From: Nitrospirales bacterium
Lineage (GTDB): Bacteria > Nitrospirota > Nitrospiria > Nitrospirales > UBA8639
Reading direction: 5' to 3'
Length of the DNA: 64,000 bases
NCBI GenBank assembly: GCA_021604005.1
Contig: BQIV01000005.1
Location: 62,001-126,000 of the forward strand
This document shows positions 38,294 through 57,599 of this stretch, piece after piece; position 1 is the stretch's first letter; each line of letters opens with the position of its first letter. Both the position numbers and the translations under genes were made by a program. The notes under the pieces were generated by a model, which saw only the letters and a list, made by a program, of their open reading frames with translations, had not been told where the DNA came from and made no database searches.

Positions 38294-39460
38294 TTACGGC
38301 GTGACTACCGCGCCTTCAGCAAGTGGCACAATAACTTTAATGGGTTCTTGAATGGGTTGTTGATGTGCCAAATGCAGAAGATGCATCAATAATCCATCGG
38401 TCAATTGTTGCCCCTTACTGATAATAACTTTTCCGGTCTCATCTCTGACACCCTCAGCCAGAATCATGCTGGCGGTCAACCCTTCTAATGACAACTCCAT
38501 AATGGTGTATTTCTTATCTTTTTCGAAGGATTGTTTGAGTGCGTCGAGTAAAATGGGATCATACCAGCCTTCACGCTTTCGCAATTCATATATGGCCGCA
38601 TCCTGTTCCATGCCACCTGTTTCTAAGGTATCAAAATCCAAGACCACCTTTAGCATACGCGCTTCAACCGGGATTTCTCTTCCCTGATCCGATGAATCCA
38701 TCGGTGGTCCACTTCCATCATATCGTTTTTCTTGAAAACGAATGATTTTCGCGACTTCGTCCATGCGCGGAATAGCTTCCAGCAAATCACCTCCAATCTG
38801 CGGATGCTTGAAAAAGAGCTCTTCTTCCTGAGAGGTTAACGGTTCACCACAATACTGCTTTCGAAGCACCTCCTGGGGCATCGTCACCGTTCCAATTTGA
38901 GAGAGCAGCGCTGCGGTCTCAATAAGCCATGAGCAATCGACTCCCATGGGCCTCGTCATCCCCTTCATATATCGTTGAATACGTGAAGTCCGACCAAATG
39001 CCTCTGGGTTTGATAAAGAAAACACTTCTATGAGACTTTTTAAGCACCCATTCAATGTTCGCTCAAGAATATCGCGCTCCATACGCAACAACCGATGATG
39101 CTCAAGGCCAGCTTGAATAGTCTCAAGTAATAATTCATGCGGACATGGTTTTGAGAGAAATCGAAAAACCGCGCCATCATTGACGGCTTTCATCGCCGTC
39201 TCAACGTCGGCATAGCCCGTAATTAAGATCCGAGACGCATCGGGCATTTGTGCTTTGACCATCTTTAAAAACTCAATTCCATCGACATTGGGCATGCGAA
39301 AATCCGATACCACGACGGCAAACGGCCCATCGCTACTCAGTTTCTCGATTCCCCATTCAGGGCCTAAGGCCGTATCAATTTCAAACCCCTTACGAAACTG
39401 CCGCTTATACGCATCTAAAACATTTCGACTATCGTCAACAAATAAGACTTTTTCAGGCAT
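38294..39460 (-). CDS. Response regulator with degenerate HD-GYP output domain
   Basis: 388 residues. The N-terminal receiver is complete: LFVDDSRNVLDAYKRQF, phosphoacceptor Asp in VVVSDFRMPNVDGIEFL, switch Thr in ILITGYADVETAM and Lys in RFLSKPCPHELL. The C-terminal region follows the HD-GYP layout but lacks its metal ligands: HDIGK is AALLSQIGTV, HHE is IIRFQEKRYDG and GYP is GPP. It is therefore probably not a c-di-GMP phosphodiesterase. The ATG at 39460 overlaps the upstream HDOD gene as ATGCCTGA. It is the third gene of a three-gene operon. Confidence 0.85.
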   Translation of the reverse strand: MPEKVLFVDDSRNVLDAYKRQFRKGFEIDTALGPEWGIEKLSSDGPFAVVVSDFRMPNVDGIEFLKMVKAQMPDASRILITGYADVETAMKAVNDGAVFRFLSKPCPHELLLETIQAGLEHHRLLRMERDILERTLNGCLKSLIEVFSLSNPEAFGRTSRIQRYMKGMTRPMGVDCSWLIETAALLSQIGTVTMPQEVLRKQYCGEPLTSQEEELFFKHPQIGGDLLEAIPRMDEVAKIIRFQEKRYDGSGPPMDSSDQGREIPVEARMLKVVLDFDTLETGGMEQDAAIYELRKREGWYDPILLDALKQSFEKDKKYTIMELSLEGLTASMILAEGVRDETGKVIISKGQQLTDGLLMHLLHLAHQQPIQEPIKVIVPLAEGAVVTP

Positions 39461-40463
39461 AACCCAACTCCAGACTCTGAACCTTCGCCGCATATCGCTG
39501 CCATGTTGGCCACGGATCAACATAGCCATGTACCGCCAAATATTCCATGGCTCGATCAGAGGGAATCCCATCGCTATCTTGCGGCCATCCACCCCCATCA
39601 AGAGTATTGGCAGCAAAGACAGCAAGTGTTGGCGTAACTCCAGGTAATTCAAGCCCCAGAGGATCATCGTGAAAGGCGACCGCATCAACAATAGCTTGCG
39701 GAAACATGTGGCGGCGAAGATAGGCTGCGCCAATACTGTCATGAGAAAGACCTAATTCACGAAATTCAGCTGTCGCGAGCGAAAGACCTTCACGCCTCGC
39801 CCGTGACATGATGCGCGTATAACAGTTGACATCAAGCGACAGGGCTAGTACGGCCAACCCAATATCATGGGAATACCCTGCCACACAGGATTGCCTAATC
39901 ACATCAGCATCTCCACGCTCGCCTTTGGCCAGAACCCCTGCCAGACACCCCGTACGGACACTATGCTTCCACAACACATCAACGCTCAGATGCTCTTCTT
40001 TCTGTTTCTCCAATGCAGCAAAGATTTGCGCGACAACCAGCAGTTGCTTCACCGTCTTCGTTCCCAACCACTCCATGCCGTGCTCAACCGTCTCGGGCAG
40101 AAAATCGAAGACTCTCCAGGTCGTCTCCAACAGTTGCATCACCTTGACTCGAATGTGCGCATCGCATGCAGTCCACATGGCATGGTAAAGACATGGATCA
40201 TCCAATAGAGACAGACAACCTTCATGGCGAAGGCGAGGATTCAGGTCAAACGATGGGGTATCGAAATCATGTTCCTTACGGCCATCCGTTGAGTTATCAA
40301 ACGGCCTAAGAAGGTCCCAGGTAAGCGTCCTGCCCAGCAAGTCAAAACTTCTCTTAAGTGGAATCAAATCCACCTCTTTTGGAATAACCCACAAAGACAT
40401 ATGCGAACCTTGCTCTTGAGGAGACACATGTTCAGTACACACAAGATGACGAGTCCACTTCAT
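39453..40463 (-). CDS. HDOD-domain signalling protein
   Basis: 336 residues with a C-terminal HDOD domain (about residues 130-310), a non-catalytic or divergent HD-related fold found in signalling proteins. Family-like segments are VKQLLVVAQIFAALEKQK, LWKHSVRTGCLAGVLAKG, VAGYSHDIGLAVLALSLD, REGLSLATAEFRELGLSHDS and VDAVAFHDDP. The first 100 residues match nothing I know. The ATG follows the stop of the upstream kinase-like gene directly (TAA then ATG), and its end overlaps the downstream receiver gene. The three are thus translationally coupled. Confidence 0.82.
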   Translation of the reverse strand: MKWTRHLVCTEHVSPQEQGSHMSLWVIPKEVDLIPLKRSFDLLGRTLTWDLLRPFDNSTDGRKEHDFDTPSFDLNPRLRHEGCLSLLDDPCLYHAMWTACDAHIRVKVMQLLETTWRVFDFLPETVEHGMEWLGTKTVKQLLVVAQIFAALEKQKEEHLSVDVLWKHSVRTGCLAGVLAKGERGDADVIRQSCVAGYSHDIGLAVLALSLDVNCYTRIMSRARREGLSLATAEFRELGLSHDSIGAAYLRRHMFPQAIVDAVAFHDDPLGLELPGVTPTLAVFAANTLDGGGWPQDSDGIPSDRAMEYLAVHGYVDPWPTWQRYAAKVQSLELGYA

Positions 40464-50427: not shown

Positions 50428-51522
50428 CTAGACAGAAGGTTCCGAGGAACCAAGCGCCAACCTTTCTTCCTCCTGGACTTTCGTCCAGACGAGTTGAATC
50501 ATCTGATCTGCGCTTTCAATGTCTGTTGAAAACACACTCCATCCCATCGCCATATGGATAATAGAGCCAAGCTGTTGAAGCGAACGCTCTCGAATATGAC
50601 TGCGTATGCGTTCTCCGATATCAATCGCGTGATCTTCTATCGTCTCAGGCAACAACAGAACAAAGTTTTGCTCTTGATAGATCGATACAATATCGCAGTC
50701 ACGGCTCAACTCTTTGACCCACGTTGCCAAAGACTTCAAGACATTCCGCACCGCATCCGTTCCACCTTCCTCTTCATATTGTCCGAGGCAGTCGGGACGC
50801 ATCATCAATATGGAAAATGGACGATCATAGCGAGTCGCACGATGAATCTCGCGAACCAATTGTTCTCGGAAATATTGAAATGTATACAGTTCAAGGCCGT
50901 GATCGATGACAAGCATGCCACCTTTTTCACCATAGATACTTTCTTGAGATGCAGCCAAAATCCCACGTTCCGTTAACTGATAGGCATAAATTCTTTCAAT
51001 AAGCGCTCGATCAACATGAAACGATTCCCCGCAAGCCAGCGAGAGACACGAGGTCACCGCCTCAGGGAACAAGGCCGCACACGCGTGACACCGGAAATTG
51101 GTGGAGGCCCGTTCATAATCAACTCCGAGATGACGAAGTTGGTTCTGACATTTCGGGCAAATTAATTGCGTTCCCTTATGAAACTCATCTTCGTACGATA
51201 AATATCCACAGGCGTAGTGATGGAGCATTTCGACCAACTCGATATGATGACTTGAGCAGTCCGGACACGTTTCCCGGAAATTTAAGGCGAAATGCTTACA
51301 CGATGGGCAGAGGTGAACCTTGTCATGTAATTCCCGTTTAAACAATCCCAAATCAACAAGCTCATTCAGCACATCGAACTCCTGCCCAATTGGCACCCGT
51401 AGCGTTTCATGAGCCTCGAGCACTTGATACCCTATTGGAGAGTCGATGCACGGCACCGGCACAAGCTTGTCCACCTGTTTCTCAATCATGAAATGTAAGA
51501 GATGAATTCGTCGATCACTCAT
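50428..51522 (-). CDS. Zinc-ribbon protein with degenerate GGDEF-like C terminus
   Basis: 364 residues. The first half is rich in CxxC pairs: HLCPSCKHF, ETCPDCSSH, LICPKCQNQL, FRCHACAAL and later a CLSLACGES pair, forming several zinc ribbons; the layout recalls TackOD1-type metal-binding output domains. The second half follows a GGDEF fold: FREQLVREIHRATRYDRPFS, then ILMMRPDCLGQYEEEGG. The signature itself is lost (DIVSIYQEQNFVLLLPET, with YQEQNF in place of GGDEF). It cannot be an active diguanylate cyclase but might bind a nucleotide or a partner. ATG 51522, with an AGGA ribosome site abutting a 9-bp hairpin. First gene of the polysaccharide operon. Confidence 0.82.
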   Translation of the reverse strand: MSDRRIHLLHFMIEKQVDKLVPVPCIDSPIGYQVLEAHETLRVPIGQEFDVLNELVDLGLFKRELHDKVHLCPSCKHFALNFRETCPDCSSHHIELVEMLHHYACGYLSYEDEFHKGTQLICPKCQNQLRHLGVDYERASTNFRCHACAALFPEAVTSCLSLACGESFHVDRALIERIYAYQLTERGILAASQESIYGEKGGMLVIDHGLELYTFQYFREQLVREIHRATRYDRPFSILMMRPDCLGQYEEEGGTDAVRNVLKSLATWVKELSRDCDIVSIYQEQNFVLLLPETIEDHAIDIGERIRSHIRERSLQQLGSIIHMAMGWSVFSTDIESADQMIQLVWTKVQEEERLALGSSEPSV

Positions 51523-51530
51523 AATGAATC

Positions 51531-51555
51531 CTGTGTAGTCTTTCAAACTACACAG
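51531..51555 (-). promoter_or_regulatory. Perfect 9-bp inverted repeat abutting the ribosome site of the polysaccharide operon
   Basis: CTGTGTAGT (51531-51539) and ACTACACAG (51547-51555) are perfect reverse complements around a 7-nt loop. On the minus-strand transcript the 3' arm ends in the AG of the AGGA ribosome site, about 8 nt before the ATG at 51522. It could be a translational hairpin or an operator for a dimeric regulator. Confidence 0.6.
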
Positions 51556-52837: not shown

Positions 52838-54745
52838 TCATACATCGGGAGGCATGGCAACAGGCAAGGTTAAGATAAATATTGCTCCGCATCCTTCACC
52901 ACCGCTTCGCACATGCAGCGACCCTCCCATGTTTTTGGCCAAGAGGGCCCCGCTGTGGAGGCCAAATCCATGACCGTCTTTCTTGGTCGTAAAGCCTTGA
53001 GAAAAAATATGCGTCAACTGACCAGGAGGAATTCCTACGCCTGTATCCGCAACTTCGAGTTGGACCATACTCCAGTCACGTGCCGCTGGCCCAATTCGAA
53101 CTGTGAGTATTTTTCGTGGGCTCTTCTGCATCGCTTGGGTACTGTTACGTATTAAATTCACTAAAATTTGTAACGTTTGATGCTTATCGACCATCACTTC
53201 TTCTGTGTTGACAAATTCCCGCACAATTTCTCCACCCAATTTCTCTAAGAGCACCTTATTGATCGTCAAGGCTTGCTCCATGAGGTCAGCCAACATCACG
53301 GGTTCATGCAGGCCTCCAGCCTTGACCATACCTTGCTGCATCGCCACACATTGCTTCGCATGCTCTGCACTCTCCACCAATGACTCCAGTTCATGGAGCG
53401 TCACCTGCTGCTCATCGATCAGATGGTCCGCTAACTGCGCAAGATAGCCTGGAATCTGCCGGCCTTTCGGATCGTGAGACACATAGGCATTGAGATCATC
53501 CATGTGGGTATTAAGCATGTGTGAAATTTTCCGCACATCGCCCACAAGGGATTGCCGTAGCGTCGTCCCCATGATTCCCACAGAGACATTAATACTGTTC
53601 AGGACATTGCCCACATTATGAAGTACGCTGGTCGCCACATCGGCCATACCTAGGCGACGAGAGGTCTCAACGAGTTGATCATGAAACTGCCGCCGCTCGT
53701 TTTCGAGACGCTTGCGTTCGGTAATGTCGTGCGCCACACACACCAATCCCTGTATCACGCCTCTCTCATCTTTCATGAGGGAACCGGACAGTGCCATGGG
53801 GATCGACTCGCCATTTTTGGCAAGATACGTCGTTTCAACATTACTGACCACCCCCTGAAAATACAACGCTTCCATAATAGGGCCTTGCGTCAATTCTTCG
53901 CCAAAGATCTTACTCGGACATTCCTCCAACAACTCGTCTTCTTCGTAGCCAAGCAACATCAATAACGAGCGATTCACCGCCTCAATGGTCATATTCGCAT
54001 TAATCACCAGTAACGTATCGGCCATGGATCTGATGATGTTTTCCATATGAGTCTTAGCGGCGGAAAGCTCATCTTTCGCTTTCGCCAGTTCACCATTCTT
54101 TCGCGCTAAATCTTTGGCTGTCCCCCCATACATTCCCTCATTCCTTTGACACTCACGAGCATGGACCGCGCCAGCATGTCCTTCGTGCAACGGCAGCGAT
54201 TGTTCATCAGGAATGGGGCACTCACCATCGAATTGGGGGCTTCTGCATTGAGAGAGGCACCATTTGTGCGTCAGAACCATAGCCATTTGAAAAACATCGA
54301 TCGCGTGAAATGGCTTACGCAACACTAAGAATTGTTCTCGATGTGTCCCTTCTTCTATCTCGACATCCGACACATGCTCCACACTGTCCGTACAGAGGAC
54401 ACATTGAAGCAAGGGGTCAACGTTCAAATATTGTACAAGCATGCGTCCTGCCGACCACTCTGACATCGCATTCAGATCGATAAATACAACCGCAAAGGGA
54501 CAGTTGGCTTCCACTGCGTGTTGAATCATGGCGATGCCGGCCTCGCTACATTCCACATTGTGTATGTCAAAACTTGGCCAACGGGAGAAAAATGCAGGAG
54601 TACGCAACGCCGCACCATTGGGCTGTGAACGATGTACCGAATCCGCGATCGGTGTCTGATCCAACATTTGACGAACATCCGAAGAAAAGCCCGGATTGTC
54701 ACCGACAACCAATATTCGGCTTCTTATTCCTTGCAGAACGTTCAC
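52838..54745 (-). CDS. Hybrid histidine kinase with a degenerate N-terminal receiver
   Basis: About 635 residues: receiver, coiled coil, PAS and kinase. In the receiver the acidic pair is partly lost (RILVVGDNPGFSS), though Asp in VVFIDLNAM and Lys in LRKPFHAIDVF remain. The PAS domain opens IIRSMADTLLVINANMTIEA and ends VCVAHDITERK. The H-box is of the HNVGN type, ATSVLHNVGNVLNSINVS. The HATPase has LVNLIRNSTQAM, ADTGVGIPPGQLTHIFSQGF and HGFGLHSGALLAKNMGG. Start uncertain: GTG 54745 has AGGGGG 8 nt upstream, while an earlier GTG at 54784 would add 13 residues. Downstream partner of the single-domain receiver at 54,804. Confidence 0.9.
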   Translation of the reverse strand: MNVLQGIRSRILVVGDNPGFSSDVRQMLDQTPIADSVHRSQPNGAALRTPAFFSRWPSFDIHNVECSEAGIAMIQHAVEANCPFAVVFIDLNAMSEWSAGRMLVQYLNVDPLLQCVLCTDSVEHVSDVEIEEGTHREQFLVLRKPFHAIDVFQMAMVLTHKWCLSQCRSPQFDGECPIPDEQSLPLHEGHAGAVHARECQRNEGMYGGTAKDLARKNGELAKAKDELSAAKTHMENIIRSMADTLLVINANMTIEAVNRSLLMLLGYEEDELLEECPSKIFGEELTQGPIMEALYFQGVVSNVETTYLAKNGESIPMALSGSLMKDERGVIQGLVCVAHDITERKRLENERRQFHDQLVETSRRLGMADVATSVLHNVGNVLNSINVSVGIMGTTLRQSLVGDVRKISHMLNTHMDDLNAYVSHDPKGRQIPGYLAQLADHLIDEQQVTLHELESLVESAEHAKQCVAMQQGMVKAGGLHEPVMLADLMEQALTINKVLLEKLGGEIVREFVNTEEVMVDKHQTLQILVNLIRNSTQAMQKSPRKILTVRIGPAARDWSMVQLEVADTGVGIPPGQLTHIFSQGFTTKKDGHGFGLHSGALLAKNMGGSLHVRSGGEGCGAIFILTLPVAMPPDV

Positions 54746-54803
54746 GCCACACATCCCCCTCTGAATCGATCCAGAAATTGACACATTGCGACATTTGCCA
54801 TAC

Positions 54804-55289
54804 CTAATTCAGGTGGACATGTTTGACGCGCTGCAGATTGTGCACAGGATGCCCCTTTGACCAGTATTTCGTTAATCCCTGCATAAGCTCTAAATATCCA
54901 TCTAAACTATTGGGTTTGGTCACAAACGAGTGGGCTCCCAAGTTATACGCACTATCGATATGTTTGGCAACGCGTGAGGTCGTTAATACCAACACAGGAA
55001 TATCCTGCAACGCGTGATCAGATTTAATTTCGACCAGTGCAGAGCATCCGTCTTTTTTGGGCATGTTCAAATCCAAAATAATCAGGCCGGGACGCGGTGA
55101 GGTTACCGGATCACCATAGGTCCCACGATGCGTTAAATAATTCATCAGCTCTTCGCCATCATGAACGAACCGCAATTCCTTTCCGAGTCGGCATTCATCC
55201 CAAGCCGCCTGGGCAACTAAACAGTCATCCGTGCTATCATCCGCCATTAACACAATGAAGGGAACGGCTTGCATACAAGTACTCATCAT
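54804..55289 (-). CDS. Single-domain response regulator (Rcp1-like)
   Basis: 161 residues, a stand-alone receiver. Acidic pair in FIVLMADDSTDDCLVAQAAW, phosphoacceptor in LIILDLNMPKKDGCSAL, switch Thr/Ser in VLVLTTSRVAKHID and Lys in SFVTKPNSLDGYLELM. The insert ELMNYLTHRGTYGDP is typical of Rcp1-type receivers that work with phytochrome-like and hybrid kinases. ATG 55289 has AGGAGG 5 nt upstream. It lies upstream of the 52,838 kinase (58 nt gap), so they probably form one operon. A c-di-GMP riboswitch lies about 410 nt further upstream on the same strand. Confidence 0.92.
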   Translation of the reverse strand: MMSTCMQAVPFIVLMADDSTDDCLVAQAAWDECRLGKELRFVHDGEELMNYLTHRGTYGDPVTSPRPGLIILDLNMPKKDGCSALVEIKSDHALQDIPVLVLTTSRVAKHIDSAYNLGAHSFVTKPNSLDGYLELMQGLTKYWSKGHPVHNLQRVKHVHLN

Positions 55290-55700
55290 CACACCCTCCT
55301 TTTTAACTCATGAAATCTGGTCGTCCGAGATTCAATCATGTGCGTGTGTTGTCGATAGGTTTTCTCCCACTACCCTTCTCCTTTACACACTGGCTTTGTT
55401 GCATGTCTGCATGCAACTCGGACTTCAACACGGAATAATTATGAGACAAGACAACTTTGGCATGAACATATTGTGATAGTGGAATAATAGGGTCAGCCCA
55501 TGATACGCGCTGCTCATTGTGGCAAGTCATACGACTGTTGCCCAAAGCCGAGTCCACGTTAAGGAGATTGCAACCAGGATGGAGAGAGCGGTCTATCGTC
55601 TAGACTGAGCAAGGATAGGAAACTGGAGGGAGAAGCGCGAGACTCCAAGGTCTTCGCCTATCACGTCGATAAACGCAAGAGATCTTGACGCTTCAGAGAC
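55290..55700 (-). other. Long spacer between the c-di-GMP riboswitch and the receiver gene
   Basis: About 410 nt with no convincing gene. A 73-codon open frame (55336-55557) lacks a family or a good ribosome site. I find no clear intrinsic terminator immediately after the aptamer; a CTATC / GATAG inverted repeat lies near 55591-55620. Either this is a long leader of the receiver mRNA or it hides a small RNA or peptide that is the true riboswitch target. Confidence 0.35.
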
Positions 55701-55800
55701 CAGTGTGGCGGCCAGGCGAACCCCGGGAATATCATGATCCCAACTCAGGTCCCTTAGCTTTGCGTCTTACCTTCTCAGGTAGTTTGCCCTGTGCACCCTG
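55701..55800 (-). promoter_or_regulatory. Cyclic-di-GMP-I (GEMM) riboswitch aptamer
   Basis: The minus strand carries the invariant GEMM-I core: CACAGGGCAAAC (GGGCAAA at 55789-55783), a short hairpin TACC / GGTA, then GACGCAAAGC (55766-55757) and the closing AGGGACC segment. The second helix holds a GGGA / TCCC hairpin and ends with GGTTCGCCTGGCCGCC, equivalent to the consensus GCCRGGYUGCC region. The outer stem also forms: CAGGGTG (55800-55794) pairs with CACACTG (55707-55701) with a single mismatch. This aptamer class binds c-di-GMP to switch downstream expression. It points towards the receiver/kinase genes at 55,289-52,838. Confidence 0.9.
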
Positions 55801-56090
55801 TTGTCTCTTGTATCGGCAATCTACACGATTTCTTGAGGAGAACATTCGTCAAAATTGTCTATGCGCAGCAGGACTTATGCCACAACCAGACACCTTCATC
55901 ACTCAAGACTATCGCAAATCCACATACGGTCCAAACAGGAATATACGATGAACTCCGCGCGGTACCGCCTGAACGTAAGGAAGGTTATGCCCGCCTGTAT
56001 GACCTGCAGGCGATTGACGGTTCGGGAAATCCGGATTCAGTGCGACGACATGCAGATTCGGCATAACTGAAACGGCTATAGCATGTATGA

Positions 56091-57599
56091 CTACACGTGA
56101 TAGGAACGTGCACACATTTCAGCCTCATGACCAGCCTCGGTAGGACGGCCCGCCGGTAGGGTAATCAGAAAGGTAGATCCTTGTCCAAGCCGGCTCTGCA
56201 CGGTGATCGTGCCCCCGCAACGATCGACGATTTTCTTACAGACAGCAAGGCCAACACCCGTCCCTTCGAATTCGTCTCTCCGATGGAGACGTTTGAACAT
56301 TCCAAAAATACGGTCTGTATACTGACTATCTATCCCAATACCGTCATCTTCGATTCGGAGCTGACACAACACATCAGAACGCCGTCCGTCGTGTTGACGT
56401 CGCTCATTCATGAGACTGGCCGATATGCGAACGACGGGGGCTTCATTAGGTTTATGAAATTTCAATGCGTTTCCGATTACGTTTTGCAATAATTGCCGCA
56501 ATTGCGTTCGGTCAAACTCAATCACAGGAAGTTCCTCAACTTCTATCCTTGCCTGAGACTCCTCAATACGAACCGCAAAATCATGCAGAATCTCGTTAAC
56601 CACCTCACCAAGCGCAACTGAGTCAACCTGTCGCTCTTGATGTTCCAAGCGCGAATACACAAGCAAATCTTGGATAAGATGCTGCATTCGGTCCGAGGCC
56701 TTGAGAATACGCCCCAAAAACTCGTGTCCCGTCTCATGTAACGCCTCTCCACACTTCACCCGTAATAAATCGCTAAAAACTTGGATTGTGTGAAGCGGTT
56801 CTTGCAAGTCATGGGCAGCCACGGAGGCGAACTGATCAAGCTCATGGTTTGATCGCACCAATTCTTCGGTTTTACACCGAAGCGCAAGTTCGGCACGCTC
56901 TCGTTCATGCACTTCGATCAACGCCTGATCCCGCGCTTCCCTGAGATCGTTGTTCCGTTGCTCCAAATCTCGAATCGACTTCGCCAGTTGTGTTTCTATC
57001 ACTTGCCGGCGAAGCACATCATGTTCTAATTGCGCATTCGCAGCATGGAGTTCCGCCATCCGTTGATCCACAAGATGCTCTAACTCTCCAAGGCGGAGCT
57101 TGGCATATCCTGCCCAATGCCATTTGTGTGTGAGCGAATTTGCTAATTGGCGAACTTCGATTGGATCAAATGGTTTTCGAAGAATGAGGAGTTGATCACG
57201 GTGTCCTAAGCGGGGAATCACTTCATCCCATGGATGGTCTGAGAATGCGGTACAGATCACAGCCTGAATGGCGGAATCAATTTCCCAAATCCGTTCGATC
57301 GTTTCGACGCCATCCCACCCGGACGGCATTCGCATATCCACAAACAGCACAGCATACGGTTTTCCCTGCTCTACAGCCGTTTTGACGAGCTCATACCCCG
57401 CAACACCCTGATCGGCACTGTCGACCAAAAACGATTCTTGATAGGGTATGGTCACGCCATCGTCAAATAATACGGCATGCGCAGCATGCATCGCGGAATC
57501 CGCAGTTGGCGAACCTAAGACTTTTCGGTAATCGTCAATGATGGCAGGATTATCATCAATCACCAAAATACGTCGATTGAGAGTAAGCGCGTCAGGCAT
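56091..57599 (-). CDS. REC-HisKA-HATPase hybrid histidine kinase
   Basis: 502 residues. The receiver is complete (RILVIDDNPAIIDDYRKVL, Asp in LFVDMRMPSGWDGVETIE, ICTAFSDHPWD, Lys in LILRKPFDPIEVRQ). A coiled-coil linker follows, then a HisKA box AAHDLQEPLHTIQVFSDLL and an HATPase with LLQNVIGNALKFHKP, EDDGIGIDSQYTDRIFGMF and GTGVGLAVCKKIVDRCGG. The layout matches bacteriophytochrome-type kinases without the sensor. ATG 57599, with GGAGG 8 nt upstream. Its receiver is closely related to those at 57,852 and 40,464. Confidence 0.93.
   Translation of the reverse strand: MPDALTLNRRILVIDDNPAIIDDYRKVLGSPTADSAMHAAHAVLFDDGVTIPYQESFLVDSADQGVAGYELVKTAVEQGKPYAVLFVDMRMPSGWDGVETIERIWEIDSAIQAVICTAFSDHPWDEVIPRLGHRDQLLILRKPFDPIEVRQLANSLTHKWHWAGYAKLRLGELEHLVDQRMAELHAANAQLEHDVLRRQVIETQLAKSIRDLEQRNNDLREARDQALIEVHERERAELALRCKTEELVRSNHELDQFASVAAHDLQEPLHTIQVFSDLLRVKCGEALHETGHEFLGRILKASDRMQHLIQDLLVYSRLEHQERQVDSVALGEVVNEILHDFAVRIEESQARIEVEELPVIEFDRTQLRQLLQNVIGNALKFHKPNEAPVVRISASLMNERRQHDGRRSDVLCQLRIEDDGIGIDSQYTDRIFGMFKRLHRRDEFEGTGVGLAVCKKIVDRCGGTITVQSRLGQGSTFLITLPAGRPTEAGHEAEMCARSYHV

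Follow-up and report, generated by a model that had tools for sequence, protein, structure and literature searches.

On the minus strand of the window, by which we mean the whole 64-kb stretch of DNA that was analysed, a c-di-GMP-I riboswitch aptamer lies between a candidate promoter and the leader of a receiver gene. The features discussed below are as follows.

55810-55836, minus strand: candidate FliA/sigma-28-type promoter, TCAAGAAA-N11-GCCGATAC, 11 nt upstream of the aptamer; seen in 5/5 orthologs, exact pattern match in this genome.
55704-55798, minus strand: c-di-GMP-I (GEMM-I) riboswitch aptamer; RF01051, 45.9 bits, model positions 1-87.
55758-55767, minus strand: aptamer core AGACGCAAAG, whose complementarity to the 5' arm of the hairpin below would allow pairing (putative antiterminator).
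55652-55678, minus strand: terminator-like hairpin without a U-run; U-rich tail in 3/5 genus orthologs.
55605-55635, minus strand: pyrimidine-rich, G-poor stretch, conserved, a candidate Rho-loading region.
55292-55304, minus strand: ribosome binding site AAAAAGGAGGGTG of the receiver gene, kept among orthologs.
54804-55292, minus strand: stand-alone CheY-like receiver of 162 aa, first gene past the leader; PF00072, conserved association.
52838-54784, minus strand: PAS-histidine kinase of 648 aa, 19 nt past the receiver gene and probably in the same operon.
50428-51546, minus strand: TackOD1-GGDEF protein with a degenerate motif.

The Rfam scan of the window returned one match at gathering level, to RF01051, which covers the full model with an E-value of 8.5e-6 and exceeds the gathering cut-off of 35 bits. 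The preliminary description, which had placed a well-formed minus-strand c-di-GMP-I riboswitch at 55701-55800 and had proposed the Rfam GEMM-I model as a check, is borne out by this match. Its coordinates and motifs were correct, and the aptamer contains GGGCAAA, GACGCAAAGC, a GAGA tetraloop and the closing stem. Judged by its sequence, the aptamer is thus confirmed as a genuine c-di-GMP-I riboswitch, and it is an ordinary, even weak, member of the GEMM-I family. It scores lowest of the five GEMM-I aptamers in its genome (5-7 are present in each of the five genus genomes), and its RF01051 alignment marks four non-standard pairs, one of which closes the first hairpin and is C.A here, with G in the four orthologs.

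That the locus shows directly that c-di-GMP is sensed, as was also claimed, is too strong a statement, since we infer the ligand from the sequence, and the terminator U-run and one aptamer pair have been lost in this genome; the aptamer stands, the word "directly" does not. The same description had reported several broken GGDEF and HD-GYP proteins in the region. Among the 15 window proteins that were scanned (7 plus 8, a subset of all), this holds for the TackOD1-GGDEF protein, which is probably inactive as a cyclase because its GGDEF motif appears to read QEQNF, and fails for the HD-type match at 39453-40463, which is an HDOD domain.

The next minus-strand gene, the receiver, starts at 55292, 411 nt past the aptamer, in agreement with the CheY-like receiver and the distance of about 410 nt described earlier. 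The very long leader suspected there recurs throughout the genus: the order aptamer, leader, receiver is kept in 5/5 genomes with leaders of 402-588 nt, and in the alignment promoter, aptamer, hairpin, ribosome binding site and gene follow one another in all five orthologs. Nine further family aptamers, from other genera, precede a receiver 36-56% identical to ours, with leaders of up to 288 nt; start codons outside the genus are automatic (longest ORF), so these lengths are approximate, and at one locus (L227) the called receiver start falls within the leader. In total, the aptamer-then-receiver order is found at 14 family loci of several genera, with receivers 36-87% identical to ours. Because this pairing recurs across loci, the receiver operon is the likely target of the aptamer. 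A global structure of the leader was considered and rejected, as our 541-nt leader folds no better than its shuffles (z 0.64). A wide search did not place the receiver family more closely: its best relatives beyond the genus were generic receivers, 47-58% identical, from cyanobacteria, Nitrospirae and others.

The preliminary description included neither the promoter nor the GEMM-I aptamers, treated further below, on a second FliA/WhiG gene. FliA/sigma-28 promoters follow the consensus TAAAGTTT-N11-GCCGATAA, and TAAAG(TTT)-N11-(G)CCGATAA-like boxes are present upstream of our aptamer; the corresponding block in the sister genome G001 reads TAAAGAAT-N11-ACCGATAC in the ortholog alignment. The exact promoter pattern occurs at 42 sites in the five genus genomes, against 10 for the reversed pattern, and 15 of the 42 sit 9-52 nt before a GEMM-I aptamer. 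It is also found upstream of flagellin in four of the five genomes, which supports reading the conserved block as a FliA motif. A search for sigma-70-type promoters found none in 54700-56300, where 2.1 would be expected by chance. We infer that the promoter at 55810-55836 is used by a sigma-28-type RNA polymerase.

Downstream of the aptamer, our hairpin (55678-55652) has 2 T in 9 nt and no U-run, so that the hairpin-plus-U-run layout of a terminator is missing in this genome; the U-run has been lost in G001 as well. The receiver homologs of other genera carry a hairpin and a T-run about 20-35 nt past the aptamer in 9/9 cases (the L237 hairpin was read by eye). In eight of these nine, the 5' arm of the hairpin can pair, around one bulged A, with an aptamer hairpin strand plus the core; the duplex has -16.4 to -20.3 kcal/mol, and no more than 1.2% of shuffled arms do as well. 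Of the 28 loci where a GEMM-I heads the sigma factor paralog FliA2 (see below), 21 likewise give a core-arm helix, 6 bp or longer, that ranks top among the aptamer pieces. At these loci core and arm covary (GGACGC/GCGTYC versus GGGCGC/GCGCCC, an A-to-G change in the core being mirrored in the arm), with three loci (L084, L092, L023) fitting the pairing poorly. Our own duplex, at -11.1 kcal/mol, is of modest strength, with 5% of shuffles doing equally well; in the sister genomes that have a U-rich tail, three in number, it is not clearly above shuffles (15-19% as good), and G001 has none (69% as good).

The Cd1 riboswitch of C. difficile is described as a transcriptional OFF switch whose antiterminator uses a strand of the ligand pocket (PMC9262584). 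Since antiterminator and ligand pocket would share one strand here too, OFF is the likely sign. The terminator and the core-arm pairing of the other-genus homologs suggest an OFF switch, and our locus would have the same sign. With Cd1-type switches the locus has in common the aptamer class and a core-consuming antiterminator that competes with the terminator; it differs by the sigma-28-type promoter just upstream, the receiver/kinase operon as target and the erosion of its own terminator.

Considering these results, we think it fairly probable that the locus is a sigma-28-transcribed c-di-GMP-I OFF switch leading the receiver and PAS-kinase operon, with termination weakened or Rho-dependent in this genome. 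The riboswitch would open the leader of the operon, and a polymerase carrying a sigma-28-type factor, either FliA or FliA2, would initiate at most about 10 nt before the aptamer. In the ligand-free RNA, the strand GGTAAG(A)CGCAA of the aptamer would pair with the 5' arm of the next hairpin and act as an antiterminator. Upon c-di-GMP binding this strand would be held in the aptamer, the hairpin would form, transcription would stop and expression of the receiver and kinase would be lowered. In the relatives the hairpin would serve as an intrinsic terminator; in our genome, where the U-run is gone, termination would be weakened or would depend on Rho through the C-rich leader. The locus would thereby be part of a family-wide circuit in which sigma-28-type promoters precede GEMM-I aptamers and a GEMM-I also leads the FliA2 gene. 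A point against this account is that a terminator 30 nt past the aptamer does not account for leaders of more than 400 nt.

Riboswitch control may thus be weakened, Rho-dependent or vestigial at our locus. If vestigial, promoter and leader would still drive the operon, control having been lost in this species through decay of terminator and aptamer. The loss of the U-run here and in G001, the broken aptamer pair and the rank of weakest GEMM-I of the genome would fit. However, core motifs, tetraloop and spacing are intact, the promoter is kept, and our core and hairpin arm have changed together (GGTAAG(A)CGCAA with TTGCGTTTATC), a coordinated change which suggests upkeep of the switch; we consider full loss of control unlikely.

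We give a similarly low probability to a Rho platform, in which the ligand would expose or hide the C-rich, G-poor stretch and Rho would end transcription inside the leader, whose length would then be explained. C-minus-G reaches a maximum of +19 per 78 nt just past our hairpin, a value found in 0.06% of minus-strand windows, and because the stretch is so extreme for the window, Rho may act on our leader. Four terminator-less sister loci (L002, L019, L020, L026) reach +17 to +20, and L017, with a strong terminator, only +1. On the other hand, the orthologs with a U-rich tail share the C-rich stretch (+15 to +17), the rut motifs are loose, and the signal is one of composition only.

A free RNA in the manner of merRNA, an abundant aptamer transcript soaking up c-di-GMP while the receiver gene has its own promoter, seems to us improbable. 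Its precedent is the 445-nt c-di-GMP riboswitch RNA of Bdellovibrio, and the promoter at the aptamer, the early stop site in the relatives and the long gap to the gene would agree with it. Nevertheless, merRNA is reported to have no conserved downstream gene (PMC3627812), whereas here the receiver follows the aptamer at all 14 loci, and the search of 54700-56300 for sigma-70-type promoters gave the receiver none.

A separate small RNA within 55290-55700, offered by the preliminary description as an alternative target, would be possible but is not needed, and the small peptide proposed for the same interval can be dismissed as very improbable: the 73-codon GTG ORF at 55336-55557 has no counterpart of similar place, frame and length in the four orthologs, none was flagged with a ribosome site, and no conserved small ORF (leader-peptide gene) was found in the leaders of the five genus genomes, so that a hidden leader peptide is not supported.

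A c-di-GMP riboswitch is normally one leader on one gene. The family sample comprised 138 GEMM-I aptamers in 32 of 48 genomes, 135 of them with usable upstream sequence (left out were L247, with 3 nt upstream, G030:C220 and G025:C129). A sigma-28-type site, counted when at least 12 of 16 positions matched within 150 nt upstream of the aptamer, precedes 79 of the 107 loci that do not head FliA2 and none of the 28 that do (a truncated FliA2, L228, being counted among the latter). Related loci in this count are not independent; the sites nonetheless precede unrelated genes. Such sites were found in 1 of 132 control windows downstream of aptamers and in 2-3% of shuffles. Our own promoter scores 11, below the threshold, and is therefore not among the 79. 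The first genes past the 107 aptamers, classed by clustering with Pfam run on representatives, encode secreted Fn3/repeat proteins (44), Flp pilins (16), receivers (14), receiver-kinases (5) and others. At the same threshold the link was not found outside the family, where 2 of 41 loci have a site (phylum 1/28, sister family 1/8, class 0/5).

Genomes of the sister family (L279-L285) have a single GEMM-I, which in most cases precedes a short gene of flagellar rod type (7/8 loci by reading, with Pfam run on one). Within our genome, another GEMM-I (L004:1501-1580, G000:C26:54764-54843) is preceded by a sigma-28-type site and followed, about 600 nt on, by Flp pilin genes; in its sister loci, ATCTTGTC...GACAAGAT could form a shared hairpin at the start codon of a small ORF, the beginning of which reads RFW. 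Pairs of GEMM-I about 600 nt apart were also seen near Flp pilin genes (G021:C24, G024:C49, G027:C1:275023-275662). The leaders of secreted Fn3/repeat proteins at L001, L007, L013 and L016 look like translational switches, as CTCCT before the aptamer could mask the AGGAGG ribosome site. The aptamers of L020, L026 and L063 have an A at the position of the G that we take to set the choice between c-di-GMP and cGAMP, and are possible cGAMP or relaxed sensors.

Two TIGR02479 (FliA/WhiG) paralogs are present in most family genomes that have FliA/WhiG. The canonical FliA is found close to flhA where coordinates permit the comparison. By coordinate comparison, a GEMM-I immediately precedes the gene of the other paralog, FliA2, in 28 of 29 genomes (the exception being G020), and in most cases a strong intrinsic terminator comes after the aptamer. 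In our genome this aptamer is L003 (L003:1501-1595), and L084-L103 are of the same kind; the L003 product scores 200.9 bits against a FliA/WhiG subfamily cut-off of 189.6 and aligns well with the canonical FliA. FliA/WhiG is present in 32/32 GEMM-bearing family genomes and GEMM-I absent from 15/15 genomes without FliA/WhiG; one genome (G019) has two FliA and no GEMM-I. In G026, listed as 99% complete, we found no match for flagellin, FlhA, canonical FliA or Flp pilin. It keeps a GEMM-led FliA2 and a GEMM-I with a 14/16 sigma-28-type site, which makes a non-flagellar role of FliA2 probable. Exact-pattern sites are not enriched in G026 (7 versus 6 for the reversed control), the one suggestive site being that in front of locus L238.

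These observations lead us to propose, tentatively and at somewhat less than even confidence, a two-tier c-di-GMP circuit: a riboswitch would set the level of FliA2, FliA2 would transcribe receivers, Flp pilins and surface proteins, each itself riboswitch-led, and the arrangement could outlive the flagellum.

In Bdellovibrio a FliA-type sigma factor is reported to control many non-flagellar genes; the motif given is TTAAG-N16-CCGATA, and the entry for merRNA leaves the FliA-promoter column blank (PMC3627812). This attack-phase regulon resembles our system in its c-di-GMP riboswitch RNA and in a motif that is nearly our own; the difference is that in our family FliA-type sites precede many riboswitches, and these lead conserved genes. 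In Actinobacteria, c-di-GMP acts through the sigma/anti-sigma switch WhiG-(c-di-GMP)-RsiG, whose output in Rubrobacter is type IV pili (PMC8325347). In both cases c-di-GMP would control a FliA/WhiG-family sigma factor, there through an anti-sigma protein and here through riboswitches on the sigma gene and on its apparent target genes. We found no report of c-di-GMP riboswitches in Nitrospirales-type bacteria in the open-licence literature searched, and as far as that search shows, neither the pairing of promoter and riboswitch nor a riboswitch ahead of a FliA/WhiG paralog has been described for this clade.

Altogether, a promoter class and a riboswitch class co-occur family-wide, and the gene of a sigma factor that may recognise these promoters is itself headed by a riboswitch of that class. 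If the two-tier circuit is true, the same messenger would be read at the sigma factor and then again on the target RNAs. c-di-GMP would in that case control a sigma regulon by RNA at two layers, as a counterpart of the WhiG/RsiG protein switch, and one messenger would gate a regulator together with the genes it targets.
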